A stretch of DNA of 35,860 nt from Myxococcaceae bacterium (GTDB lineage Bacteria > Myxococcota > Myxococcia > Myxococcales > Myxococcaceae): assembly GCA_022842905.1 (NCBI GenBank), contig JALHOS010000026.1, positions 1 through 35,860 on the forward strand, written 5' to 3'. Each line of letters opens with the position of its first letter. The stretch's first letter is position 1. The notes beneath the pieces were generated by a model. It saw nothing but the letters and a program-made list of their open reading frames with translations. It was not told where the DNA came from and did no database searches. The translations under genes and the position numbers were made by a program. Positions 574-17,143 of the stretch are shown piece by piece.

Positions 574-2136
574 CTACGAGCTGCACGACAGGGCGCTACA
601 CCCCGGCTTGTCCTTGGCCCAGTCCGGCCGCGGCCGCGCGAACCGCTCCTTGCCGGGCTGCTCCACGTACGGGCGCTGCAGCACTTCGAACAGCTCGTGC
701 AACAGGGACAGCTCACCCTGCTCGGCCGCGTCGATGGCCTCCTGCGCGAGGTAGTTCCGCAGTACGTACTTGGGGTTCGCGGCGTGAAGTCGCGCCGTCA
801 GCTCGTCGACGGTGCCTTCGCGCCGAGCTCGCGTCCGCCAGCGCTCGAGCCACGCGGTCAGCGCCGCGCGGTGGTCGGCGGGCACGGCCGCAGGTTCGTA
901 GAACGCCTGCTCGAGCGGCGCGGCGTCCTCGGTCCGCAGCGCCGCGCTCAGCGCGCGGAAGAAGTTCGTCATGTCCGTCTCGACGCTCGCCAACAGCCGC
1001 AGCACGTCCTGCGCGAGGGTGCGGTCGTCCTGGTCTTCGAGCTGCGTGAGCCCCAGCTTGCCCGCCAGCGCACGCGTGTACTCGAGCTCGAACGTGCGCT
1101 CGAACGTCTGGAGCCCGTCGACCAGCGGCTGCTCCGTCGGCAGCAGCGGGGCCAGCGCGACCGCCAGGCGTTCGAGGTTCCACAGCGCGACGGCCGGTTG
1201 GTTGCGGTAACGGTAGCGTCGGCTCTGCGCGTCGGTCGTGTTCGGCGTCCAGTCGGGGTCGAAGTCGTCGAGCCAGCCGTACGGCCCGTAGTCGATGGTG
1301 AGGCCCAGCACCGACATGTTGTCGGTGTTCATCACGCCGTGGACGAAGCCGACCCGCATCCAGTGGGCCATGAGGACGGCGGTGCGGCGGCAGACCTCGG
1401 CGAAGAAGGCAGCGGTGGCGTCGGGCCCGGGGGCGCCGAGCTCCGGGAAGTGGGTGCTGACGGTGTCGTCGACGAGCTGCCGGAGCAGGGTGTGGTCCTC
1501 GCGCGCGGCGAGCAGCTCGAAGTTGCCGAAGCGCAGGAAGGTGGGCGCGACGCGGCAGACGATGGCGCCGGGCTCTGGGCGCGGGTTGCCGTCGTAGAGC
1601 AGGTCGCGCACGACGTCTTCGCCGGTCGCCACGAGCGACAGCGCGCGGGTGGTGGGTACGCCGAGCGCGTGCATCGCCTCGCTGCAGACGAACTCGCGCA
1701 ACGACGAGCGCAGCACCGCTCGTCCGTCTCCGCGGCGCGAGTACGGGGTGGGACCGGCCCCCTTGAGCTGGAGCTCCTGCCGGCCGTGCTCGCGGGTGAG
1801 CAGCTCTCCGAGGACGATGGCGCGGCCGTCGCCGAGCTGCCCGGCCCAGCTGCCGAACTGGTGCCCGCCGTAACAGGCCGCGTACGGCTTCATGCCCGGC
1901 CACAGCCCGTTGCCGCCGAACACGCGCGCGAAGTCGTCGGAGCGAACCACCGCGTCGTCCAGGCCCAAGAGCGCGGCGACGGACGGCGAGTGCGCGAGGA
2001 GCCTGGGCGCCTTCACCGCCGTCGGCTCGACGAAGGAGTACGCGGCGCCGGTCACCTGGCGGGAACGGTTCTCGGTCGACGGGTCCGCGGGCAGGGCACG
2101 CACGAAGCGCGCGTCGAAGACGGGGAGGGAGCTCAC
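574..2136 (-). CDS. selO: Protein adenylyltransferase SelO (YdiU/UPF0061)
   Basis: This 520-residue protein matches the SelO pseudokinase family, which transfers AMP from ATP to Ser/Thr/Tyr of target proteins, mainly in redox homeostasis. Visible signatures are the N-terminal [22 protein letters not shown] block, the nucleotide-binding lysine K125 (LQLKGAG), E148 (SLREF), the active-site loop HGVMNTDN with D272 and N273, and D282 (TIDYG). The K-to-E spacing of 23 and D-to-D spacing of 10 equal those of the characterised Pseudomonas SelO. The C-terminus ends CSALSCSS, the family's redox-active tail, with Cys where eukaryotic homologues carry selenocysteine. The start is GTG at 2136; the next residues ([18 protein letters not shown]) match the usual N-terminus. 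It is divergent from the Coa1-like gene. Confidence 0.96.
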
Positions 2137-2255
2137 GCAGCACTGCGTATGTCCACGAGTCGGCCGGGGTGCAAGCCAACGTACGCGCGCTCTCTGCCAG
2201 ACCAGCGGGCGGTGCTTTGCGGCGGAGCCCAGGCCGTGGTCTCTTGCCGCTCCAG

Positions 2256-2738
2256 ATGAGCCGTCGCCCTCCCGTCACGTTCGCCCGAACGCGCACCACG
2301 ACGGACAACCAGAGCTTCCTCGACGTGCGCAACACGCGGCTCTTGCCGCGGCACTGGGGCTGGTGGCTGGCGCTGGCCCTGGCGGCGCTCTCCTCGGTCG
2401 CCGTCGTCGCCCTCTACCTGCGCGCGGGCTACGTGGCGGGCACGCTGGAAGAGCACCCCGTCTACGTCGGCAGCCTGAAGCGTGCGAACGACCACCCCGA
2501 CGCACGGGCCGAGCTGGGCAGCCCCATCGTCGGCAGCCGCGTGCAGCGCGTGGAAGAGTCGTGGCTGAGCGGCGAGACGCACCTGCAGTTCGACGTCGAA
2601 GGGCCGCGGGGGGCCGGCCGCATCGACGTCGTCGCGCAGGGGAACGAGCCCGACTCGCTGCTCATTCTGCGGATGAAGCTGACGGTGTCCGGGCCGAGCC
2701 GTCGTGTCATCGCGTTGGACGGGCCGATCAAGCGCTGA
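2256..2738 (+). CDS. Coa1-like membrane protein (cytochrome oxidase assembly factor family)
   Basis: The 160-residue protein has a cytoplasmic basic N-terminus ([15 protein letters not shown]), one transmembrane helix at about residues 29-50 ([20 protein letters not shown]) and a soluble C-terminal domain. The soluble part carries the Coa1 family pattern: an ELGSPI core, a central strand region, then [12 protein letters not shown] with conserved glycines. Eukaryotic Coa1 helps assemble cytochrome c oxidase; the role of bacterial members is unknown. The frame is open back to an ATG/GTG at 2169, but that adds 29 low-complexity residues ([14 protein letters not shown]), so I chose ATG 2256. No clear Shine-Dalgarno site is seen. 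No cytochrome oxidase genes are nearby, so the context does not test the assembly role. Confidence 0.72.
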
Positions 2739-2881
2739 CACTTCGTTGGCCGCTCCAGCCGCAAGGCGATCGAACTGCGCTCCGGTCGCGCCTCCATGAG
2801 CTGAGTGCATTTTCTGCGTGCCGGTCGCGACGGCTCTCGTCAGCAGCGAACGTGGCCCTGCCGTTGCACCCGCGCACGGCC

Positions 2882-5800
2882 ATGCCGCAACAGACGGTGA
2901 CGGTCGACGCGAACGAGGCGGTCGCGGCCATTGCGCATCGCCTCAGTGAAGTCATTGCCATCTACCCCATCACGCCGAGCAGCAGCATGGGTGAGCTCGC
3001 CGACGAATGGAGCGCGCAGGGGCGCACCAACGTCTTCGGCCAGGTGCCGAAGGTGGTGGAGCTCCAGAGTGAGGGCGGGGCCGCTGGCACGCTCCACGGC
3101 GCGTTGCAGGGCGGGGCGCTGGCGACGACCTTCACCGCGTCGCAGGGCCTGCTGCTCATGCTGCCGGACATGCTGAAGATTGGCGGCGAGCTGACGCCGC
3201 TGGCCATGCACGTCGCCGCGCGCAGCTTAGCCACGCACGCGCTGTCCATCTTCGGGGACCATTCGGACGTGATGATGGCGCGGGGCACCGGCTTCGCGCT
3301 GTTGTGCAGCAGCTCGGTGCAAGAAGCGCCGGACTTCGCCGCGGTGGCCCACGCTGTCACGCTGCGCGCGCGCATTCCGTTCCTGCACTTCTTCGACGGC
3401 TTCCGCACCAGCCACGAGGTCAGCCGCATCGACGCGCTGGACGACCAGGCGCTGCGCTCGCTGCTCGACGCCAAGGCGCTGTCCGACTTCCGCCGCCGCG
3501 CGCTCACGCCGGACGCGCCGGTGCTGCGAGGCACCGCGCAGAACCCCGACACCTTCTTTCAAGCCCGCGAGGCCGGGAACCGCTTCTACGCCGCGACGCC
3601 AGGCCTCGTGCAGGCCGCCTTCGACGAGCTGGCCGCGCTCACCGGGCGCCAGTACCGGCTGTTCGACTACGTGGGCCACCCGCAGGCCGAGCGCGTCGTG
3701 GTGCTGATGGGGTCCGGCGCCGAGGCCGTGCGCGAGACGGTGGACTGGCTGGTCGCGCGTGGAGAGAAGGTGGGCGCCGTCATCGTCCGGCTGTTCCGCC
3801 CCTTCGACGGCGCCGCGCTGCTGTCGGCGCTGCCGGCGAGCGTGAAGACGATCGCCGCGCTCGATCGCACCAAGGAGCCCGGCGCGCTGGGCGAGCCGCT
3901 GTACCAAGACGTCATCACCGCGCTGGCCGAAGGCGACCGCGGTGTGCGCGTCGTGGGCGGGCGCTACGGCCTGTCGTCCAAGGAGTTCACCCCGGCGATG
4001 ATCCGCGCCGTCTTCGACAACCTGGCGCTGCCGAGGCCGAAGAACCACTTCACCGTCGGCATCACCGACGACGTGACGCACACCTCGCTGCCCTACGACG
4101 CCGAGTTCGACCTGGAGCCCAACGACGTCGTGCGCGCGGTGCTGTTCGGGCTGGGCAGCGACGGCACGGTGTCGAGCAACAAGCAGACGATCAAGATCAT
4201 CGGCGAGTACACGCCCAACTACGCCCAGGGCTACTTCGTCTACGACTCGAAGAAGTCGGGGGCGATGACGGTCTCTCACCTGCGCTTCGGGCCCCGGCCG
4301 ATCCGCTCGTCGTACCTCATCAAGCACGCCAGCTTCGTCGCCTGTCACTACGCGCCGCTGCTCGAGCGGCACAACGTGCTCGACGCCGCCGCGCCGGGCG
4401 CCACGTTTCTGCTCAACACCCACCACGACAAGGCCACCGCGTTCGCCGCGCTGCCGCTCGAAGTGCAGCAGACGATCCTCGACAAGAAGCTCAAGTTCTT
4501 CGTCATCGACGCTTTCGCCGTCGCGAAGGACGTGGGCCTGGACCGCTACATCAGCGCGGTCATGCAGGTGTGCTTCTTCAAGCTCTCCCACGTGCTGCCC
4601 ATGGACGAAGCGCTGACGCACCTGCGCGCGAGCGTGGAGAAGGCGTACGGCAAGCGCGGCACGGAGGTCGTGCGGCGCAACCTGCTCGCGCTGGAGCAGA
4701 GCCTGGGGCGGCTGCAGGAAGTGACGGTGCCCAAGGTCGCCACGGGTACGCCCAGGCCCCCGCCGGTGCCCAAGGCCGCGCCGGACTTCGTGCAGCGGGT
4801 GACGGCCGCCATGCTCGCTGGCCACGGTGACGCGCTGCCGGTGAGCGCCTTCCCCATCGACGGCACGTGGCCCACCGCCACGACCCAGTGGGAAAAGCGC
4901 GCCGTCGGCTTGGAGGTGCCCGCCTGGGACGCGCCGCTGTGCATTCAGTGCAACAAGTGCTCGCTCATCTGCCCGCACGCGGCCATTCGCGCGCAGCTGG
5001 TCGACCCCTCCGACGCGACGAAGGCGCCCAGCGCGTTCAAGACGGTGCCCTTCAAGGCAAAGGAGCTGGGCCAGGCCCCGTCGGGCCAAGGCTGGCTGTA
5101 CGCACTGCAGGTCGCGCCGGACGACTGCACCGGCTGCGGGCTCTGCGTGGCGGTCTGCCCGGCCAAGGACAAGTCCAACCCGCGGCACAAGGCCATCGAC
5201 ATGAAGCCCGTCGAGCCGGTGCGCGCGCAGGAACGCGAGAACTGGGACTTCTTCTCGAAGCTGCCGCACGTCGACCGCGCCAAGGTGCCGTCGGACCTCA
5301 AGTCGTCGCAGTTCCTCGAGCCCTTGTTCGAGTTCTCCGGCGCGTGCGCGGGCTGCGGTGAGACGCCGTACCTCAAGCTGCTCAGCCAGCTCTTCGGTGA
5401 CCGGCTCCTCATCGCCAACGCCACCGGCTGCAGCAGCATCTACGGCGGCAACCTGCCGACGACGCCCTGGGCGAAGAACAAGGACGGCCGCGGGCCGGCG
5501 TGGGCCAACTCGCTGTTCGAGGACAACGCCGAGTTTGGCCTGGGCCTCAAGCTCGCGGTCGACGCGCGGCGACAGCTGGCCAGCGCGCTGCTCAAACAGC
5601 ACGGCGGGCACCTGGGCGACGAGCTGGTGACGGGCTTGCTCGAGGCGGATCAGTCCGACGAGGGAGGGCTCGCCTCGCAGCGGTCTCGCGTCGCCGCGCT
5701 CAAGGCCAAGCTCGCCGGCGTCGCCACTGACGACGCGAGGCTGCTGCACGAGCTGGCCGACGCGCTGGTGAAGAAGTCGGTGTGGCTCGTCGGCGGCGAC

Positions 5801-7517: not shown

Positions 7518-10500
7518 ATGGCTCGACGAACGACGCCGACTGACGCGGGCTGGCGGCTCCGCTCCCTCGAAGGCGCGTACGGCCTCTTTCGCCGTCTCCC
7601 CGCGAGCGTCCGCCGGAGGATGCAGCCCACGCCCAGCGTCGCGCTCACACCGTCGCGCCGCGCTGCCATGGCCCAGACCGACGCCCCTGGCCAGGGTGGC
7701 AGTGGCGTGGGGACGACACGTCGGCCCTTGTCTGCGTCGAACTCTGGGGGGCTTCCCGCTGACTCGAGCCATTCCGCGCTCGCACCGTCGCGCCGCGCTG
7801 TCGGTGCGCCGACCGACGCCTCGGCCGGCGACGGAGTCAGCAGGACTCGACCCCGCTCGCTCGCCTTCACCGCGCCGCTCGTGCTCCTGCTGGCCTGCCA
7901 ATTCGAGGCAGGGTTGCCGGCCGGCGCGGCGATCCGCTGCGTCGACGGTGCGTGCCCGACGGGCTACGCGTGCCGCGCCCAAGTCGGCCTCTGCGTGCCG
8001 AACGCCTCGGGGCCGAGCACGGCGCCGCGCATCGTCTCGGCGGAGGTCTCCCCGAGTCACGCGCGCGACGGCAGCACCGTCACGGTGCGGCTGGTCGTCG
8101 ACAAGCCGCTGCTCAGCCCGCCGGCGGTGATGCTGACCGACGCGCGCGGCGTCACCCGCCTCACGCGCACTGGCGGCGACGCGCTGGAGCACGAGTACAC
8201 CTCCGTGGTGGACCAACGTGAGCACGCCGAAGGGCTGGCGCGTCTCACGGCGGACCTGGTGGACGTGCAAGGCACCGAAGCCTTGGCGCAGCCGGTCGGC
8301 ACCACCGAGCTCGACTTCACGCCGCCCGCGCTGCTCGAGGCGGCCTTCAGCGCCCCGCGCCAAGGCAACGACGCCGGGGTGCTCACCGTGCGCCCGAGCG
8401 AGCCCGTCGCCGTGCGTGTGTCTCTGTCGGAGCCGCTGCGTCCAGGCGCGGCCCTGCGCCCCACCGGCACCTGCGACGGCGGCGTGGCCTTCGAAGTGCG
8501 CTCCGAGCGGTCCGGGTTGCTGGACTTCGCCTCGCGCCCCGTTGCGTCCGCTGACTGTGAGCTGCGCCTGAGCGTCGAGGGCGCGGTGGACCTCGCCGGC
8601 AACGTCGCTCCGGCGCTTGCGTTGCCGCTGCTCCTGCGGGTCGATGGCGTCCCGCCGGTCATCTCCACCTTCACCCTGCGCGGCGTGTCCGACGCGGGGA
8701 GCGTGCCCGCACGCACGTTCAGCCGACAGCCAGGCTTCGACCGGTTCGTCCTCCAGGCGGAGGTCGACGGCACCGCCGTGCACACCGAGCTGCAGCTCGA
8801 CGACGCGCCGCTCGTGGGCTGTACCTGCGCGCCGACGCGGTGTGACTGCGGCGGCCAGGTCGGCGCCGCGGCCATGGAGGGCACGCACGTCTTCAAGGTC
8901 CGCACTGAAGACCTGGCGGGCAACCCCTCGACGCAGTCCATCGAGGTCCGCTTCGACTTCACGCCGCCCGCGCTGGTCCCTTCGTCCGTGCACCTGGGCG
9001 TGCGTGCCCCTGTGGACTGCCCCCTCGCCGCGACGCCCGCGCTGGCGGCCGCCGGGGCCGTCGAGCTCGACTTCTCGGTGGACGAAGCCGCCACGGCGCA
9101 GGTCGACGCTCAGCCTGCGGCCGTCACCTGCACGCCGACGTCCAACACCGCCACACACTTTGCGTTCCGAGGCCGCGCGTTGGACGGGGGCAGCACGCCG
9201 TCCGTTCAGCTCCTCGCCCGGGTCACCGACGCGGTGGGCAACTCGGCGGCGCTGCCGCTCGGCGCGCCGTTCGCCATCGACGTCGACGCGCCGGCCGCTG
9301 CCGACGCCACCACCCCCGGAGCGCTGGCCTTCGAGCGCGTCCCCTGGGGCACCGCCGATGCGGGTCCTTCCTTCACGCTGGTGGGGCGCGCCGGCGTCGC
9401 CGAGCGAGGCACGACGCTGCAGGTCCTCGAAGGCGCCGTGCCCATCGCGCTGGCGCCGGTGTCCGACGCCGGCTTCTCGGTGCCGCTCGGCGTCGACCGG
9501 CGCAGCTTGGCGGTCCGCGTCTACGACGAGGCATGCAACGCCAGCGCACCGACTCGCGTGCGCGACGTCGAGTGGCGCGCGTCGCTCGCCGGCAAGCGAC
9601 GGGGGCGTACGTTCGAGAACCCACACACGCTCGAGCGCCGCGAGCCGTTCGCGCCCACGACGACCCAGGCGATTTGGGCGACGGAGGAGACGCTCGACCA
9701 GCCGCTGGTCCAGGAAGCGGGCCTCACCTTTCGGCCGCCGAGCCTCACCCCCCGCGGTCGCACGGACCCTGGCTTCGTCGCCGACCCCGCCCGCGGCAAG
9801 CTGCTCGTGTTCGGCGGCGTCAACATCCCCTCGGTCAACGGGTACAACGACGAGCTGTTGGAGTGGGACTTGTCGACGCGGTCCTGGACGAGCCGCACGC
9901 CGGTGCCGCGACCTCAGGCTTGGCCCACCGCCCGACAGGGCGGCGTGGTGGTGTTCGACGCCCACCGGCAGCGGCTGGTCGTCTTCAGCGGGCAGGGGCC
10001 CACCGTTTCGGACGACCTGTGGGAATGGGAGCCCGTGACGGGGCTGTGGACCAACCGCACCCCATTCCCCAGGCCCACCGTGTGGCCTTCGCGCCGCGAC
10101 TTCGCGAACGCCGTCTTCGACGACGTCCGGAAGCGGGTCGTCGTGTACGGAGGCCGACTCGCCGGCGCGACCACCTCGACGGCGGAGCTGTGGGAGTGGG
10201 ACGGCGCTGACGGCTCGTGGACCAACCGCACGCCCACGCCCCGCCCTCCCTCGTGGCCGGCGCCGCGCGACGGCGCGAAGGCCACCTTCGACAGCGCCCG
10301 TGGGCGGTTGGTGTTGTTCGGCGGCTGGACCGGCGGCACCACGCTCGACGAGCTGTGGGAATGCGACTTGGCCACCGCGACGTGGACCAACCGCACGCCC
10401 ACGCCGCGCCCCACGCAGTGGCCGCGCTTCGCGATCAGCCTCACGTTCGACTCGGTCCGTGGGCGCGTCATCTTGTACGGCGGGAGCCAGGTGAACGACG

Positions 10501-12026
10501 AGCTGTGGGAGTGGGACGGCGCGACCGGCAGCTGGACCGGCCTCACCCCGACGGTGCGCCCGCCGACGTGGCCGTCGGGCAACGTGCAAGCCATCACCCA
10601 CGACCCCGCGGGGCAGCGGGTGATGGCGCTGACCGACCTCCAGTTTTCGAACGCGTTCATCGAGTACGACCAAGACGCTGGGGTCTGGACGCCGATCGTC
10701 GCCACGCAGTCGCCCTCGTTCGCGCCAGGTATCCGCCACCACGTCTTCACCTTCGACTCGCGCCGAGGGAAGGCCGTGGCCTTTGGAGGCTTCGACTCGG
10801 TCTCTCGAAGCAGGGCCGTCTTCGAGTGGGACCGCGGAACCGGTGCGTGGGTGAACCCGGCGCCCTCGTCACTCCCGCCTTCGTGGCCGACGCCGCGCGC
10901 GCTGGCGGCTGGGGTGTTCGACCCCGTGGCGGATCGCACGCTGGTGTTTGGGGGCTCGGACAACTCCGGCTTGCGGGGTGACCTGCTCGAGTGGAACGGT
11001 GACGCCGGGACGTGGACCACCCGGAGCCCGACCGCCGGCTGGCCGACGCCTCGCTACAAGCACGCCATGGCGTATGACGCCGATCGCCGCGTGGTGGTGC
11101 TTTTCGGTGGCGTTGCGGGGAGCATCTTCACGGCGCTGTCGAGTGAGCTGTGGGAGTGGTCGTCGACGACGGCCACGTGGACGAATCGGACACCGACGCC
11201 TCGCCCGTCCGCGTGGCCCGCCGCGCGAGAAGGCCACGGCCTGACCTACGACGCGCCGCGCAGGAAGATGGTCCTCTTCGGAGGTCTGACTGGCCCGACG
11301 CCGGCGAACGACCTGTGGGAGTGGGACATCACGAGCGCCACCTGGACCAACCGCACGCCCAGCCCGCTGCCGGCGCAGTGGCCGGGTCCACGAGAGACGG
11401 CCGGCTTCACCGCGGACCCAGCGCGCGGCGTCGTCCTCTTGTTCGGTGGCGGCAGCGGCGCACCGGACGAGCTGTGGGAATGGAACGGGCAGACGGGCGT
11501 GTGGACCGAGCGTAGCAAGGTGCCCCGGCCCCCCGGCTGGCCGAGCGGCCGCCTCGCGCCGGGCTTGGCGTTCGAACCCGAACGGAAGGTGCTGCTGCTC
11601 CACGGGGGCATGGGCACGTACGGGCCGCTGCCGGAGCTCCACGTGCTCGGCGTCGACCTCGAGCGGGCGCCCGGCATCGTCGCGCGCTTCACCTTCGCCG
11701 CTTCGGGGGCGAGCCCCCAGGTCGAGCTCCAGGGCGCCACGGTCGAGGTGCGCGCCGGCGCGCGCGCAGGCCAGCAGCCGTCGGCAGGGGCAGCGCTGCT
11801 GGTCAGCCACGGCGACGTGCTGAGCCGTGAGCACACCGGCTCGTCGGCGGCCCCCGAAGCGCTGTCGTGGACCACCACCGACCCCGTCAGGCTCCGCGCG
11901 CTGTTCGAAGGCCCCGAGCGCTGGGTGAGCGTGGGCGTGACGCCGCGTGGCCGGAGCAGCCCCGAGCAGCTGGCGGCGGTTCGGCTCGACTGGGTGGAGC
12001 TGACGGTGCGCTACCGGGTGCCTTGA
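7518..12026 (+). CDS. Large surface lipoprotein with Ig-like domains and about 11 Kelch-like repeats
   Basis: The open frame gives 1502 residues. A hydrophobic segment ending LVLLLAC puts a lipobox cysteine at residue 127, followed by the Cys-rich motif RCVDGACPTGYACRAQ..GLC common after lipoboxes in myxobacterial lipoproteins. Residues about 150-700 hold Ig-like/bacterial-adhesin-type repeats with recurring DFTPPAL and DVDAPAA junctions. Residues about 750-1375 hold about 11 repeats of the form LWEWD..T..WTNRTP.PRP..WP..R....FD..R.R.V.FGG, a Kelch-type beta-propeller consensus. A beta-rich C-terminal domain of about 110 residues follows. It is probably exported and lipid-anchored, with an adhesive or ligand-binding role. 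The start is unresolved: 7518, 7620, 7668, GTG 7707 and TTG 7728 are all in frame, but each leaves a long non-hydrophobic extension before the lipobox. No good Shine-Dalgarno site decides between them. Confidence 0.88.
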   Translation: MARRTTPTDAGWRLRSLEGAYGLFRRLPASVRRRMQPTPSVALTPSRRAAMAQTDAPGQGGSGVGTTRRPLSASNSGGLPADSSHSALAPSRRAVGAPTDASAGDGVSRTRPRSLAFTAPLVLLLACQFEAGLPAGAAIRCVDGACPTGYACRAQVGLCVPNASGPSTAPRIVSAEVSPSHARDGSTVTVRLVVDKPLLSPPAVMLTDARGVTRLTRTGGDALEHEYTSVVDQREHAEGLARLTADLVDVQGTEALAQPVGTTELDFTPPALLEAAFSAPRQGNDAGVLTVRPSEPVAVRVSLSEPLRPGAALRPTGTCDGGVAFEVRSERSGLLDFASRPVASADCELRLSVEGAVDLAGNVAPALALPLLLRVDGVPPVISTFTLRGVSDAGSVPARTFSRQPGFDRFVLQAEVDGTAVHTELQLDDAPLVGCTCAPTRCDCGGQVGAAAMEGTHVFKVRTEDLAGNPSTQSIEVRFDFTPPALVPSSVHLGVRAPVDCPLAATPALAAAGAVELDFSVDEAATAQVDAQPAAVTCTPTSNTATHFAFRGRALDGGSTPSVQLLARVTDAVGNSAALPLGAPFAIDVDAPAAADATTPGALAFERVPWGTADAGPSFTLVGRAGVAERGTTLQVLEGAVPIALAPVSDAGFSVPLGVDRRSLAVRVYDEACNASAPTRVRDVEWRASLAGKRRGRTFENPHTLERREPFAPTTTQAIWATEETLDQPLVQEAGLTFRPPSLTPRGRTDPGFVADPARGKLLVFGGVNIPSVNGYNDELLEWDLSTRSWTSRTPVPRPQAWPTARQGGVVVFDAHRQRLVVFSGQGPTVSDDLWEWEPVTGLWTNRTPFPRPTVWPSRRDFANAVFDDVRKRVVVYGGRLAGATTSTAELWEWDGADGSWTNRTPTPRPPSWPAPRDGAKATFDSARGRLVLFGGWTGGTTLDELWECDLATATWTNRTPTPRPTQWPRFAISLTFDSVRGRVILYGGSQVNDELWEWDGATGSWTGLTPTVRPPTWPSGNVQAITHDPAGQRVMALTDLQFSNAFIEYDQDAGVWTPIVATQSPSFAPGIRHHVFTFDSRRGKAVAFGGFDSVSRSRAVFEWDRGTGAWVNPAPSSLPPSWPTPRALAAGVFDPVADRTLVFGGSDNSGLRGDLLEWNGDAGTWTTRSPTAGWPTPRYKHAMAYDADRRVVVLFGGVAGSIFTALSSELWEWSSTTATWTNRTPTPRPSAWPAAREGHGLTYDAPRRKMVLFGGLTGPTPANDLWEWDITSATWTNRTPSPLPAQWPGPRETAGFTADPARGVVLLFGGGSGAPDELWEWNGQTGVWTERSKVPRPPGWPSGRLAPGLAFEPERKVLLLHGGMGTYGPLPELHVLGVDLERAPGIVARFTFAASGASPQVELQGATVEVRAGARAGQQPSAGAALLVSHGDVLSREHTGSSAAPEALSWTTTDPVRLRALFEGPERWVSVGVTPRGRSSPEQLAAVRLDWVELTVRYRVP
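7641..7820 (+). repeat. 45-bp direct repeat pair 135 bp apart
   Basis: Segments 7641-7685 and 7776-7820 match at 38 of 45 positions (both begin GCGCTC.CACCGTCGCGCC and end ACCGACGCC). They are offset by exactly 135 bp, so they repeat in frame as ALxPSRRAxxxxTDA in the doubtful N-terminus of the Kelch lipoprotein. They could instead be two copies of a dispersed intergenic repeat, which would mean the real start codon lies downstream. Confidence 0.6.
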
Positions 12027-12027
12027 G

Positions 12028-12048
12028 CGACCGGCCTAGAACCGGTCG
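12028..12048. terminator. Hairpin between convergent genes
   Basis: CGACCGG (12028-12034) and CCGGTCG (12042-12048) are perfect 7-bp inverted arms around a 7-nt loop. They sit between the Kelch lipoprotein stop (12026) and the histidine kinase, and overlap the last kinase codons. The symmetry could terminate both transcripts, but no U-tract is present on either strand. Confidence 0.4.
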
Positions 12049-13523
12049 TCCACCGGCGCCTTGAGCTCGGTGACGGGTGGGGCGATCTGCACTTGGGGCT
12101 GAATCCCCGGCGAGACCGGCAGCACCACCGTGAAGCGTGCGCCGCGGCCAATCTCACTGGACACCCGCACCAGGCCGCCGTGGCCTTCGACGAAGCTCTT
12201 GACGATCGCCAGGCCCAAGCCCGCCCCGCCGTACTCGCGCGTGGACGACGAATCGACTTGGTAGAAGCTCTGGAAGATCTTGTCGAACTGATCCGCCGGA
12301 ATCCCCACGCCGGAGTCTTCGACGATGATGCGGTAGCCCGGCGCGCTCAGGTCCGGCTGCTGGCCGACGCCGGTCAACGTCACGCCGACGCGGCCGCCCT
12401 TGGGCGTGAACTTCACCGCGTTGGCCAGCAGGTTGACGATCACCTGCCGCAGGCGATCGCGGTCCCCGATGATGCCCTTGGGCACGTCCGGAGGCAGCTT
12501 CACGTCCAGCGCCACGCCCTTCTTGTGCGCCTGGGGCAGCAGGCTGGACACCGAGCCTTGCACCAGCTCCACCGCGTCCATGGGCTCGAAGGTCAGCCGC
12601 ACCTTGCCCGCTTCGATCTGGCTGATGTCGAGGATCGAGCTGATCAACTTCAGCAGCGTCTCCCCCTTGTCCATGATGGTGCGGACGTAGTCGACCTGCT
12701 CGTTGTTGAGCGCGCCGGCCAGCCCTTCGGCCAACATCTCCGAGTAGCCGATGATGCTGGTCAGCGGCGTGCGCAGCTCGTGGCTGACGGTGGCGAGGAA
12801 CGCCGACTTGAGCCGGTCCAGCTCCTTGAGCCGCGTGTTCGCGTCTTCGAGCCGCTTGTTCCGTTCCTCGAGCTCGCGGTTCTGATCCCGCGTGGCCTCG
12901 ATGTGGAGCTGCGAGGTGAGGAACATCTTCTGGCCGCTGAACAACATGGTGTTCAGCAGCTGCCAGAAGTGCAGCATGACCCGCGCGACGGTGCCTTCGG
13001 GGGCGCGGCGCACCTTGAGCACCAGGTTCCGCGCGTTGGCCACGTCGAGGCCCTGGGTGATGTCAGTCAGCGTCGACGGAGGGAACTCCTTCAAGTCCTC
13101 CGGCATGAACGGGCCGAACACGACGCGGCCCATGGTGTCGCCGTCCCAGAGGATCGGCAGGATCACGTAGCGCAGCCCCGTGAAGCACGGCACCGTCACC
13201 ATGGCCTTGGTCTGCGGGGTGCCCGGGGTCCCGGCGTCGAACTGCGGCGTGCGCGCGCCGCCGGTGCACTCCACTGGCCCGTCCTTCACGCGGCCGACCG
13301 TGGCGGTGCAGCGTCGCCGCCCTTCCGAGAAGCTGAAGACGTAGCCGCAGAAGTCCCCGTTGCCGATCTTCACGTCAGCGAGCTTGGCGCCCTTGTCGTC
13401 GAAGACCTTGATGCCGACCTTGTACAGCTCGACGAAGCCCTTCACGACGTCGGTGAAGGACTCGCTGTCGAGCATCTCCGACAGGGACACCCTGCGCTGG
13501 AGCACCGAGTCGGTCTTGCTCAC
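12036..13523 (-). CDS. PocR-domain sensor histidine kinase
   Basis: The 495-residue protein starts with a PocR-type sensory domain (about 12-165), recognisable from SLSEMLDSESF, the cysteine-bearing NGDFCGYV, GRRRC and GPVEC segments, and the VFGPFMPEDL end. The conserved cysteines suggest a metal, redox or small-ligand sensor. A coiled coil (about 205-235, rich in E, R, K, L) leads to the HisKA domain with phospho-acceptor H248 in VSHELRTPL. The HATPase domain has N-box VNLLANAVKF, G1 DSGVGIP, F-box FQSFYQ and G2 YGGAGLGLAIV. No transmembrane helix is visible, so it is cytoplasmic. No receiver domain or response regulator is nearby, making it an orphan kinase. Its GTG start overlaps the stop of the GTPase gene in a GTGA quartet, showing translational coupling. 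Upstream extensions in this frame are low-complexity shadow sequence. Confidence 0.93.
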   Translation of the reverse strand: MSKTDSVLQRRVSLSEMLDSESFTDVVKGFVELYKVGIKVFDDKGAKLADVKIGNGDFCGYVFSFSEGRRRCTATVGRVKDGPVECTGGARTPQFDAGTPGTPQTKAMVTVPCFTGLRYVILPILWDGDTMGRVVFGPFMPEDLKEFPPSTLTDITQGLDVANARNLVLKVRRAPEGTVARVMLHFWQLLNTMLFSGQKMFLTSQLHIEATRDQNRELEERNKRLEDANTRLKELDRLKSAFLATVSHELRTPLTSIIGYSEMLAEGLAGALNNEQVDYVRTIMDKGETLLKLISSILDISQIEAGKVRLTFEPMDAVELVQGSVSSLLPQAHKKGVALDVKLPPDVPKGIIGDRDRLRQVIVNLLANAVKFTPKGGRVGVTLTGVGQQPDLSAPGYRIIVEDSGVGIPADQFDKIFQSFYQVDSSSTREYGGAGLGLAIVKSFVEGHGGLVRVSSEIGRGARFTVVLPVSPGIQPQVQIAPPVTELKAPVDDRF

Positions 13524-14227
13524 GCGGCCCCCGTCGGCTTCTTCGGCGGGAACTGCTTTTCCAGCTCGGTGCCCGTCGTGTCGACGTTGACGAAGACCTG
13601 GCTGAGGAATTCCTTCTCGGTCAGGCCGATGTTCTTCGACAGGCCGGCCCGCGCGTCGAGCGTGCGGTAGGCGGACTGGAGCACCGCGTGGAGCGTCTCG
13701 AGCACCCCCACGCCGCGAATGGCGATCGCGCCGATGACGGGCTCCTTGCCCTTCTTGCGCGTCTCTTCGATCTCCGCGTCCGTCTTCGTGTCCGGCAGGT
13801 CGCGCTTGTTGAACTGAATGACGACGGGCACCTGCGCGGTGTCCAGCGCGTTCTCCCTCATGTTCTCCATGAGGTTCTTCCAGTAGCTGTTGTTCTCGGC
13901 CGCGGCGTTGCGCCGGCTGTCGGCGATGAAGGCCACCGCGTCGGCGCCCTGCAGCACGATGCGGCGCGTGGCGTTGTGGATGACTTGGCCCGGCACCGTG
14001 AAGAGCTTCACCTTCACCTTGAAGCCGTTGGCGGTGCTGAAGAAGACCGGGAGGAGGTCGAAGAAGAGCGTTCGATCGTCGTGGGTCTCCACCGTCAGCA
14101 GGCGGCCACGGACGTCGGGCTGCGTGCGCTGGTGGATCATCTGCAGGTTGGTGGTTTTCCCCGACAACCCCGGCCCGTAATAGACGATCTTGACCGTCAG
14201 CTCGCGCTGCGCGTGGTTCAGTTGCAC
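13520..14227 (-). CDS. MglA-family small Ras-like GTPase
   Basis: This 235-residue protein is a bacterial small GTPase of the MglA group, whose founder controls the polarity axis of gliding and type IV pilus motility in Myxococcus. The P-loop is GPGLSGKTTN directly after KIVYY. The TVPGQ switch-II region carries the family's PGQ instead of Ras DxxGQ. The base-specificity motif is NKRDLPD. The family adds the ADAVAFIADS strand. It is about 40 residues longer than MglA; the extra C-terminal part (KEFLSQVFVNVDTTGTELEKQF) may bind partners. I chose GTG 14227, which gives QLNHAQRELTVKIVYY, matching MglA's N-terminal spacing; GTG 14260 would add 11 residues. No MglB-type GAP gene is adjacent. The downstream gene is a coupled histidine kinase, so the GTPase and kinase probably act in one pathway. 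Whether it acts in motility is unknown. Confidence 0.92.
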   Translation of the reverse strand: MQLNHAQRELTVKIVYYGPGLSGKTTNLQMIHQRTQPDVRGRLLTVETHDDRTLFFDLLPVFFSTANGFKVKVKLFTVPGQVIHNATRRIVLQGADAVAFIADSRRNAAAENNSYWKNLMENMRENALDTAQVPVVIQFNKRDLPDTKTDAEIEETRKKGKEPVIGAIAIRGVGVLETLHAVLQSAYRTLDARAGLSKNIGLTEKEFLSQVFVNVDTTGTELEKQFPPKKPTGAA

Positions 14228-14432: not shown

Positions 14433-14960
14433 ATGACGGACAAACAGGTGGGTGTCTCGCAGCAGGGCCTCGCTCCACTGCCGACCGTGTTGCCCGCCGA
14501 CGTCAAAGGCAAGCTCAAGTTCGGGCAGCCGACCGACGAAGACATGAACGTCATCGCGCAGCTCCGCGCCGGTACGGACCCCTGGAAGGCGCGGGGCGAG
14601 ACGGCGGCCGAGAGCCTCGAAGCGCTCACCAAGCTGCGCCCCTTTGCCGCGGTGGGCCGGCTCGACGGCAACGTCATCGGCTACATCACCATCGAGCGGG
14701 ACGGGCCGGTGCCCGGCGCCGCGTACCTGCGCAACATCGTCGTGCGCCACGAGCTGCGCCAGAAGGGCGTCGGCCAGGCGCTGCTCGAGCACGGCCTGTC
14801 CGTCGCTCGCGACATGAACCGCAAGACGCTGGCCCTGCGCGTCGACCCGGCCAACGGACCCGCAGTCTCGTTCTACCGAAAGCACGGCTTCACCACCGTC
14901 GCCACGGTCGTCAGCAAGAAGAGCGGGAAGCTCCGGCTGCTGATGAGCCGCGAGCTCTGA
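14433..14960 (+). CDS. GNAT-family N-acetyltransferase
   Basis: The 175-residue protein has one GNAT domain that would transfer an acetyl group from acetyl-CoA to an amine. It shows the N-terminal ATDEDMNVIAQLR-like segment, strand FAAVGRLDGNVIGYITIE, strand YLRNIVVRHELRQKGVGQALL with the pyrophosphate-binding Q/RxxGxG/A signature (RQKGVGQA), and the last helix-strand NGPAVSFYRKHGFTTVA. An N-terminal extension of about 30 residues precedes it. The start at ATG 14433 is well supported: GGGGAG lies 5 nt upstream. The RimI-like FYRKHGF ending hints at a small-molecule or protein N-terminal substrate, but this cannot be decided. It diverges from the GTPase gene and ends 4 bp before the convergent methyltransferase-like gene. 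Confidence 0.93.
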   Translation: MTDKQVGVSQQGLAPLPTVLPADVKGKLKFGQPTDEDMNVIAQLRAGTDPWKARGETAAESLEALTKLRPFAAVGRLDGNVIGYITIERDGPVPGAAYLRNIVVRHELRQKGVGQALLEHGLSVARDMNRKTLALRVDPANGPAVSFYRKHGFTTVATVVSKKSGKLRLLMSREL

Positions 14961-15787: not shown

Positions 15788-17143
15788 TCAGCGCACGACG
15801 AGGTAGAGCACGGCGAGCAGCACCAGCAGGCCGAGCACTCCGACGACGACGTACGGCGCCTTGGAGCGAGGCACGATGATGGGCTGGCTCACGGCCGCGG
15901 GTGGGGTGCTCCGAGGCCCAGGGTTCGGTGTTGCGGCGTTCGGGACCTGGGCTTGCGTCGGGGCCGCGGCGAGGGCGTTCTCGACCACGGCCGTCGCTGG
16001 CCGCTGGGCTTCCCACGGCCGCTTCATGTCGGCGGGGGGCGCCTCACCGGGGACGAACGTCGGCTCGACGCCGTCAGCGAAGACCGTCTGCGCTCCGGCG
16101 CGCGGAGGCGCGGCCTGCGGCGGGGGCTGGGCCGGCGCCGGGTTCATCAACAGCGTCTGCTCCGCGGCGCTCGCGAGAATCGTCTTCGCTTCGCCCCACT
16201 GCCGCTTGGGCGTGGTCTGGGCTCTGGACCCCGTGGGCCGCCGGGACAGCCGCTCGCCGATGCGGCGCAGGCTTCCGCGGATCTGCTCGGCGTGCGGCGG
16301 CCGCTTGTCCGGCTCGCGGTGCAGCAGGGCCATGATCCACTCGACCAGCTCGGCGTCGAGGTTCGGGTTCCACTTCGTCGGCGGCACGGCGTCCTGCAGC
16401 ATCTTCGCGCTGAGCACCTCGACGGCGGACGGCGCCTCGTGCGGCAGCCGCTTGGTGCACATTTGGTACGCGATGCCGCCCACGGCGTAGAGGTCCGTCA
16501 TCGGCCCCACGCGCTGCCCCATGACCTGCTCCGGCGCCATGAAGGCCGGCGTGCCCAGCAACGTCCCTGGGTTCGTCGGTCGCACCGAGCCCTGCGCGCG
16601 GTCCGCCTGCCGAGCCAGCCCGAAGTCGAGCAACTTCACGCGCGGCGGGCCTTCGCGGCTCTTCTCCAAGAACACGTTGCCCGGCTTGAGATCGCGGTGA
16701 ATCACGCCGACGTCGTGCGCCGCGCCCAGCGCCGACAAGAGCGCGTCGATGAGCGGAATCCACGCGGTGGGAGACGCCGGCGCTTCGCGGTCGATCCACG
16801 CGTCCATCGGCTCGCCGATGAGCAGGTCCATCACCACGTACGGCTGGCCCGTCGGTAGGTTGCCGAACCCGAAGATGTCGACGATGCCGGGGTGGTGAAT
16901 GGCGTTGACCGTGCGCGCTTCGCGCACCAGCCGGGCCACCATGTCGGGGTCGTCGGAGATTTCAGCTTTGAGCACCTTGATGGCGACCGCTTTGCCGATC
17001 ATCTCGTGCTGGCCCTTGTAGACGATGCCCATCGCCCCGGAGCCGATGACGGACTCGACGCGGTAGTCGCCGACGAGCTGGCCGAGCAGTGGATCTCGGC
17101 TCGCCGCGCCCAGGTTTCTCAGCGTTTGGTCCCCGACTGACAC
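15788..17143 (-). CDS. Membrane-anchored Hanks-type Ser/Thr protein kinase
   Basis: The 451-residue protein has an intact eukaryotic-like kinase domain (about 27-290). Motifs are the Gly loop GSGAMGIVYKG, ATP lysine K56 in AIKVLK, HRDLKPGN with catalytic D151, DFG at 173-175 and APEQ at 203-206. A Pro/Ala-rich linker (about 310-425, with TPKRQ, QTVFADG repeats) and one C-terminal transmembrane helix (about 430-450, VVVGVLGLLVLLAVLYLV) end the protein, with no sizeable extracellular domain. It is an RD kinase, so it is probably activated by phosphorylation of its activation loop (about 180-200). An in-frame TGA two codons upstream fixes the GTG at 17143 as the first start. No Shine-Dalgarno site is clear, and a palindrome covers the start. 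Substrate unknown. Confidence 0.96.
   Translation of the reverse strand: MSVGDQTLRNLGAASRDPLLGQLVGDYRVESVIGSGAMGIVYKGQHEMIGKAVAIKVLKAEISDDPDMVARLVREARTVNAIHHPGIVDIFGFGNLPTGQPYVVMDLLIGEPMDAWIDREAPASPTAWIPLIDALLSALGAAHDVGVIHRDLKPGNVFLEKSREGPPRVKLLDFGLARQADRAQGSVRPTNPGTLLGTPAFMAPEQVMGQRVGPMTDLYAVGGIAYQMCTKRLPHEAPSAVEVLSAKMLQDAVPPTKWNPNLDAELVEWIMALLHREPDKRPPHAEQIRGSLRRIGERLSRRPTGSRAQTTPKRQWGEAKTILASAAEQTLLMNPAPAQPPPQAAPPRAGAQTVFADGVEPTFVPGEAPPADMKRPWEAQRPATAVVENALAAAPTQAQVPNAATPNPGPRSTPPAAVSQPIIVPRSKAPYVVVGVLGLLVLLAVLYLVVR

Follow-up and report, generated by a model that had tools for sequence, protein, structure and literature searches.

Myxococcus xanthus SofG is a small GTPase of the MglA family that, together with the bactofilin BacP, is reported to recruit two ATPases of the pilus, PilB and PilT, to the cell pole (PMC4316618, PMC5703909, PMC5595344). 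It was published as an orphan GTPase, and a coupled kinase is unmentioned in the open literature that we searched. Reports on its regulation conflict: in one, the cognate GAP is unidentified and MglB gives no help in GTP hydrolysis by SofG (PMC4316618), whereas in another MglB is the GAP for SofG (PMC11016934). The homologous Ras-like GTPase MglA is tied to two-component and chemosensory proteins in the MglA/MglB/RomR/Frz module. In the conservons (Cvn) of actinobacteria a histidine kinase (CvnA), a roadblock protein (CvnB), CvnC and a GTPase (CvnD) are encoded together without a response regulator, and the GTPase has been proposed as the output of the kinase (PMC4316618). PocR sensors that feed histidine kinases are likewise known, for example from propanediol-utilisation loci (PMC4207490). 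The Dif system of M. xanthus, which controls exopolysaccharide, comprises the MCP DifA, the CheW DifC, the CheY DifD, the CheA DifE and the CheC DifG (PMC4671073, PMC4319316). DifD is phosphorylated by DifE, orphan receivers such as EpsW serve the pathway (PMC4671073), and PilB lies upstream of Dif in the control of exopolysaccharide (PMC5544727). Neither SofG nor the kinase described below is counted among the Dif proteins in these papers.

Here we analysed a stretch of 35,860 nt (the window) from Myxococcaceae bacterium GCA_022842905.1 (contig JALHOS010000026.1, positions 1-35,860, forward strand), in which the gene for a GTPase very probably orthologous to SofG overlaps that for a soluble PocR histidine kinase (Table 1). 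The first-pass annotation, made from the letters alone, had described this pair as an MglA-like GTPase translationally coupled to the kinase through a GTGA overlap. The overlap was borne out, with bases 13523-13520 common to both frames. Divergent from the pair lies a GNAT acetyltransferase gene. A large Kelch-repeat protein (7518-12026, + strand) converges on the kinase and occupies the place held by ThiL and Dif genes in relatives. Further away (15788-17143, - strand) a Ser/Thr protein kinase is encoded whose linker is rich in proline and which has a hydrophobic segment at its C-terminus.

Table 1. Features of the GTPase-kinase locus in window coordinates.
Feature	Position	Strand	Details
Putative sofG orthologue, MglA-family (Group 1) small GTPase	13520..14227	-	235 aa, GTG start, TGA stop
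G1 P-loop GPGLSGKTT	14150..14176	-	(nearly) invariant in the SofG alignment and in 66 divergent SofG
G2 Arg-Thr, intrinsic arginine finger of Group 1 MglA proteins	14069..14074	-	R52 and T53 invariant in alignment; meaning from PMC4316618
G3 TVPGQ, followed by SofG-typical VIHNATR	13985..13999	-	SofG alignments
G4 NKRD	13799..13810	-	SofG alignments
SofG C-terminal extension, residues ~195-235	13523..13645	-	two short helices (196-200, 204-212), then tail; predicted by AlphaFold2
GTGA overlap of SofG stop and kinase start (translational coupling)	13520..13523	-	read from sequence
Soluble histidine kinase, PocR - signalling helix - HisKA - HATPase_c	12036..13523	-	495 aa, GTG start
PocR sensory domain, kinase residues 16-197	12933..13478	-	PF10114, E 6e-18; conserved Cys59, Cys72, Cys113
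HisKA dimerisation/phosphoacceptor domain, H248 in SHELRTPLTS	12606..12809	-	H248, E249 and T252 invariant
HATPase_c catalytic domain	12111..12467	-	Pfam and alignment
GNAT acetyltransferase, divergent neighbour of the pair	14433..14960	+	kept only in the window genome's family

The TVPGQ and NKRDLPD motifs claimed for the GTPase were both found in its product. TVPGQ in G3 and an Arg beside the Thr in G2 are the motifs of Group 1 MglA-family proteins by the criteria of PMC4316618, while Pfam returned only a weak Arf-type match. The AlphaFold2 model (mean pLDDT 86.7) had a confident G domain and a C-terminal extension forming a block above 90 up to residue 230, and Foldseek placed MglA first among its matches (TM 0.84 by target length). 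The extension had been described as absent from MglA, and this difference is real: MglA of the same genome stops near residue 195. That genome encodes three MglA-type GTPases. MglA shares contig C339 with the only roadblock (MglB-type) gene of the genome, none being found in the window, and the remaining member is a paralogue of greater length that carries an additional domain at its C-terminus. Proteins of this third myxobacterial type, of ~350-370 aa with the extra domain, were also seen in loci L003 and L175; in L003 the core of a histidine kinase is encoded close by on the other strand.

In M. xanthus the closest protein is 74-76% identical to the window GTPase and has 239 residues (L114, 8031-8747), which is the published length of SofG (PMC4316618). 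Only two other MglA-type proteins, of 195 and ~370 aa, were found in that organism. In a phylogenetic tree 34 GTPases of such pairs, that of M. xanthus included, fell on one side of a branch with 100/100 support, whereas MglA (including that of Thermus) and the third paralogue fell outside it. The two groups also differ after G3, where the SofG group reads VPGQVIHNxTR and M. xanthus MglA reads VPGQVFYDASR. Because of the length match, the presence of only two other family members in M. xanthus and the separate clade, we identify the window GTPase, with high confidence at the level of sequence, as the orthologue of SofG. The M. xanthus protein further shares the TVPGQ and Arg-Thr motifs, the C-terminal extension and the neighbouring kinase and GNAT genes. 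MglA proper was rejected as an identity, since the GTPase lies outside the MglA clade and has no adjacent mglB. An identity to MglA of only 43-46% would also suit a GTPase distinct from both MglA and SofG and with a new function, but the 239-residue M. xanthus orthologue, the single SofG clade and the shared synteny largely refute this, and we regard it as very improbable. The first-pass description of an uncharacterised MglA-like protein thus gives way to a GTPase whose function is published. Its suggestion of a polarity or GTPase switch was right in kind because the protein is a SofG orthologue, although it had not been recognised as such. The window genome encodes PilT-family ATPases and four bactofilins. 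Since 184 of 195 genomes contain PilT-family ATPases, several of them without SofG, the presence or absence of SofG is uninformative on a link with type IV pili.

The kinase fits the class of PocR-domain histidine kinases, which would be expected to bind a small ligand of hydrocarbon type, with a PF10114 match followed by HisKA and HATPase_c. The phosphoacceptor histidine, the E-x-x-T after it and the ATP-binding boxes are all retained; the invariance of H248, E249 and T252 was scored over 42 kinases. HisKA and HATPase_c were matched in all of 42 sampled kinases and PocR in 39. Judged by their motifs, the active sites of both window proteins look intact. The cysteine-bearing PocR domain noted at first reading was confirmed by the Pfam match and by three conserved cysteines: Cys59, Cys72 and Cys113 are kept in 56, 55 and 58 of 66 divergent kinases, respectively. 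We take the canonical PocR of Salmonella to have cysteines at matching places, and the three are therefore likely to be a feature of PocR; possibly they form a metal or redox site. The N-terminus is different or shorter in four loci (L161, L169, L171 and L045). By sequence, then, some lineages have a replaced or reduced sensor and retain the kinase core and SofG.

Hydrophobicity analysis found no strong membrane segment in either SofG or the kinase. Over 19 residues, hydrophobicity in the kinase peaks at a mean of 1.64, and the model shows this stretch largely as beta strand within PocR, so no membrane helix is predicted, in agreement with the initial annotation. The AlphaFold2 model of the kinase (per-residue pLDDT 87.0; domain arrangement not confident, pTM 0.58) contains a single long signalling helix spanning residues 176-265. 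Searches of the PDB and with Foldseek matched the catalytic core, and gave no informative structural match to PocR, among the matches listed. A C-terminal LPxR is absent, the kinase tail reading ...VLPVSPGIQPQVQIAPPVTELKAPVDDRF.

To follow the pair across Myxococcota we used two samples with overlapping organisms, one of 70 loci from about thirty families and one of 79 named loci whose contigs continue past SofG. A kinase core lay directly 3' of SofG on the same strand in 70/70 and 79/79 loci, and thus in 149/149 loci of the overlapping samples whose DNA continues. When 195 genomes were searched with a kinase profile, the best matches adjoined SofG wherever both lists were compared. The pair is a deeply conserved module, kept across almost the whole phylum. 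A search for conserved neighbourhoods had been proposed together with the pair, and the lack of conservation that was to count against it was not seen; the proposal of a conserved signalling pair is strongly supported. In a single contig scan with short exact peptides no best match lay clearly beyond Myxococcota, and the one locus labelled 'Bdellovibrio sp.' (L143) resembles a Myxococcota genome.

The overlap itself is conserved. Of 121 distinct pairs across Myxococcota, 98 join SofG and kinase by an exact -4 overlap (ATGA, GTGA or TTGA), and another 4 overlap by -1. This frequency is far above chance, and the conservation at -4 excludes a frameshift or chance origin. Comparison with 70 relatives supports the GTPase start assigned in the window: their GTPases begin at the same codon (GTG, TTG or ATG) or, for most of the remainder, at an ATG that precedes it by one codon. 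Five loci (L005, L007, L010, L016 and L017) lack a Shine-Dalgarno site before sofG, and a TTGGCG-like box, ~17 nt, a CACAAT-like box and ~7 nt precede the GTG, an arrangement that might yield a leaderless mRNA.

Several genomes appeared to hold a kinase without SofG. A shortened SofG lies next door in G024, a contig-cut SofG lies next door in G030, and in G186 the contig begins within the kinase; in G187, SofG is present beside a contig-cut kinase. G142 is different (L186, reverse complement of 609-3681): no SofG lies between the GNAT gene and the kinase, whose N-terminus is reduced, and ThiL and the start of an MCP gene (DifA) follow. This looks like a true loss of SofG, the sole such case among the apparent kinase-without-SofG genomes that we followed up. 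Since SofG is gone there while the kinase remains, the kinase does not need SofG in G142. A second kind of exception was found in family f23, in which the kinase still comes after a SofG-like protein, but one that has lost GTPase motifs. In G181 (L188, 560-1237) the P-loop is kept and TVPGQ and NKRD are lost, and in G180 (L189, about 340-1129) all three motifs are lost. In profile comparisons both proteins nevertheless aligned to SofG almost from end to end, C-terminal extension included, with 99% and 92% probability. Pairing can therefore persist without GTP switching, and nucleotide switching cannot be its purpose in every lineage.

In many families the pair heads a longer same-strand run of genes for ThiL, an MCP with no evident ligand domain, CheW, CheY, CheA, CheC and then LarC. 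MCP-CheW-CheY-CheA-CheC is the gene set of the M. xanthus Dif system, and the CheY of the run has 12/12 of the specificity residues that PMC4671073 gives for DifD. In L078, a close relative of M. xanthus with a SofG 98% identical to its SofG, the ThiL-dif genes begin ~7 kb beyond SofG in the downstream direction; the contig sampled from M. xanthus ends within ThiL. We take sofG to be MXAN_6703 and difA to be MXAN_6696, a numbering that fits this spacing. Dif genes do not adjoin the pair in the window genome, where the top DifE match lies on a separate contig (C457) and an unrelated convergent Kelch gene is found downstream of the kinase. Neither were ThiL or Dif genes found downstream of the pair in further loci, for example L036-L038, L048 and L049. 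The first reading is well supported in seeing a signalling pair, and it missed both the position at the head of the Dif operon in many relatives and the variability of the PocR sensor.

The best explanation, to which we assign a probability of roughly 55%, is that SofG and a dedicated, co-translated cytosolic histidine kinase act together, with the kinase probably acting on SofG. In this mechanism the PocR domain would bind a small cytosolic signal, the kinase would autophosphorylate on H248, and kinase and SofG would act as a complex in which the phosphorylation state of the kinase most likely sets the nucleotide state or the cellular place of SofG. SofG would stand in the usual position of a response regulator, and placement of the pilus motors would thereby be tied to the Dif/exopolysaccharide response. 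We consider it quite probable that the two proteins are functional partners; that SofG is the output of the kinase is more tentative, at slightly under even odds. A ligand that alters the state of SofG is plausible, and we infer both this ligand and the direction of action between the proteins. Because sofG and the kinase gene stay joined in nearly all of the phylum, the kinase is the best candidate for the missing regulator of SofG. A wider version, which we hold to be rather doubtful, would make SofG, the PocR kinase and Dif one ancient circuit, in which a GTPase output replaces the response regulator and sets pilus-motor placement and exopolysaccharide together, and in which the GTPase has decayed in some lineages to a nucleotide-free adaptor of the kinase.

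The main rival reverses the order of action, so that SofG brings the kinase to the pole or tethers it there, and the kinase signals to a receiver not linked to the pair, such as an orphan single-domain regulator of Dif/EPS or polarity. The exceptions described above lean towards this account: in G142 the kinase outlives SofG beside ThiL-DifA, and in f23 a decayed SofG without GTPase motifs keeps its place before the kinase. A variable sensor joined to a constant kinase core is also consistent with it, and EpsW-like orphan receivers do serve the Dif pathway (PMC4671073). However, no receiver is consistently encoded within the pair, DifD is already supplied with phosphate by DifE (PMC4671073), and direct partnership fits the strict coupling of SofG and kinase at least equally well. 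We therefore regard placement of the kinase by SofG as possible and, on balance, unlikely. Still less probable is co-expression alone, in which an old operon secures stable expression of SofG, kinase, ThiL and Dif, with no action of the SofG protein on the kinase protein or the reverse. The conserved run does include a thiamine enzyme (ThiL) and a nickel-insertion enzyme (LarC) with no obvious link to polarity. Against this, SofG and kinase stay adjacent where ThiL and Dif are not downstream, as in the window and the five loci named above, and the exact 4-nt overlap is kept far deeper than the remainder of the run.

Joint action of SofG and its kinase has its nearest precedent, by analogy, in the conservon model, which may serve as a guide to SofG as a kinase output. 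As in conservons, a histidine kinase and an MglA-family GTPase are encoded together without a response regulator. In contrast, the conservon kinase has transmembrane helices, HAMP and a C-terminal LPxR whereas the kinase of the pair is soluble with PocR and lacks LPxR, and the conservon GTPase belongs to Group 2 whereas SofG belongs to Group 1 (TVPGQ, Arg). Membership of the conservons was ruled out, the window having no roadblock gene and no conserved neighbour that fits CvnC. SofG also differs from MglA, which forms a separate clade and has a roadblock gene on its contig. PocR two-component kinases are found in metabolic loci, whereas the kinase of the window is paired with a small GTPase and has no regulator encoded next to it. 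No receiver protein adjoins the pair in the window, as the first-pass annotation had stated, and a classical two-component pair with an adjacent cognate response regulator is thereby excluded.

SofG, and kinase-GTPase gene pairs in actinobacteria, were already known; the phylum-wide coupling of SofG to a kinase, the Dif linkage and the pseudo-GTPase versions were not found described in the searchable open literature. Queries there for PocR with MglA, or for the locus numbers that we take to be those of the pair (MXAN_6702/MXAN_6703), returned nothing, and the earlier statement that the pairing has no described function stands as far as that literature could be searched. With the regulation of SofG in question and the GAP reports in conflict, the kinase gene joined to sofG by an overlap is a specific, deletable candidate regulator. 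The pseudo-GTPase lineages provide a natural test of what the kinase requires in SofG, and the Dif linkage offers a genetic reason for communication between the pilus motor proteins and exopolysaccharide control.
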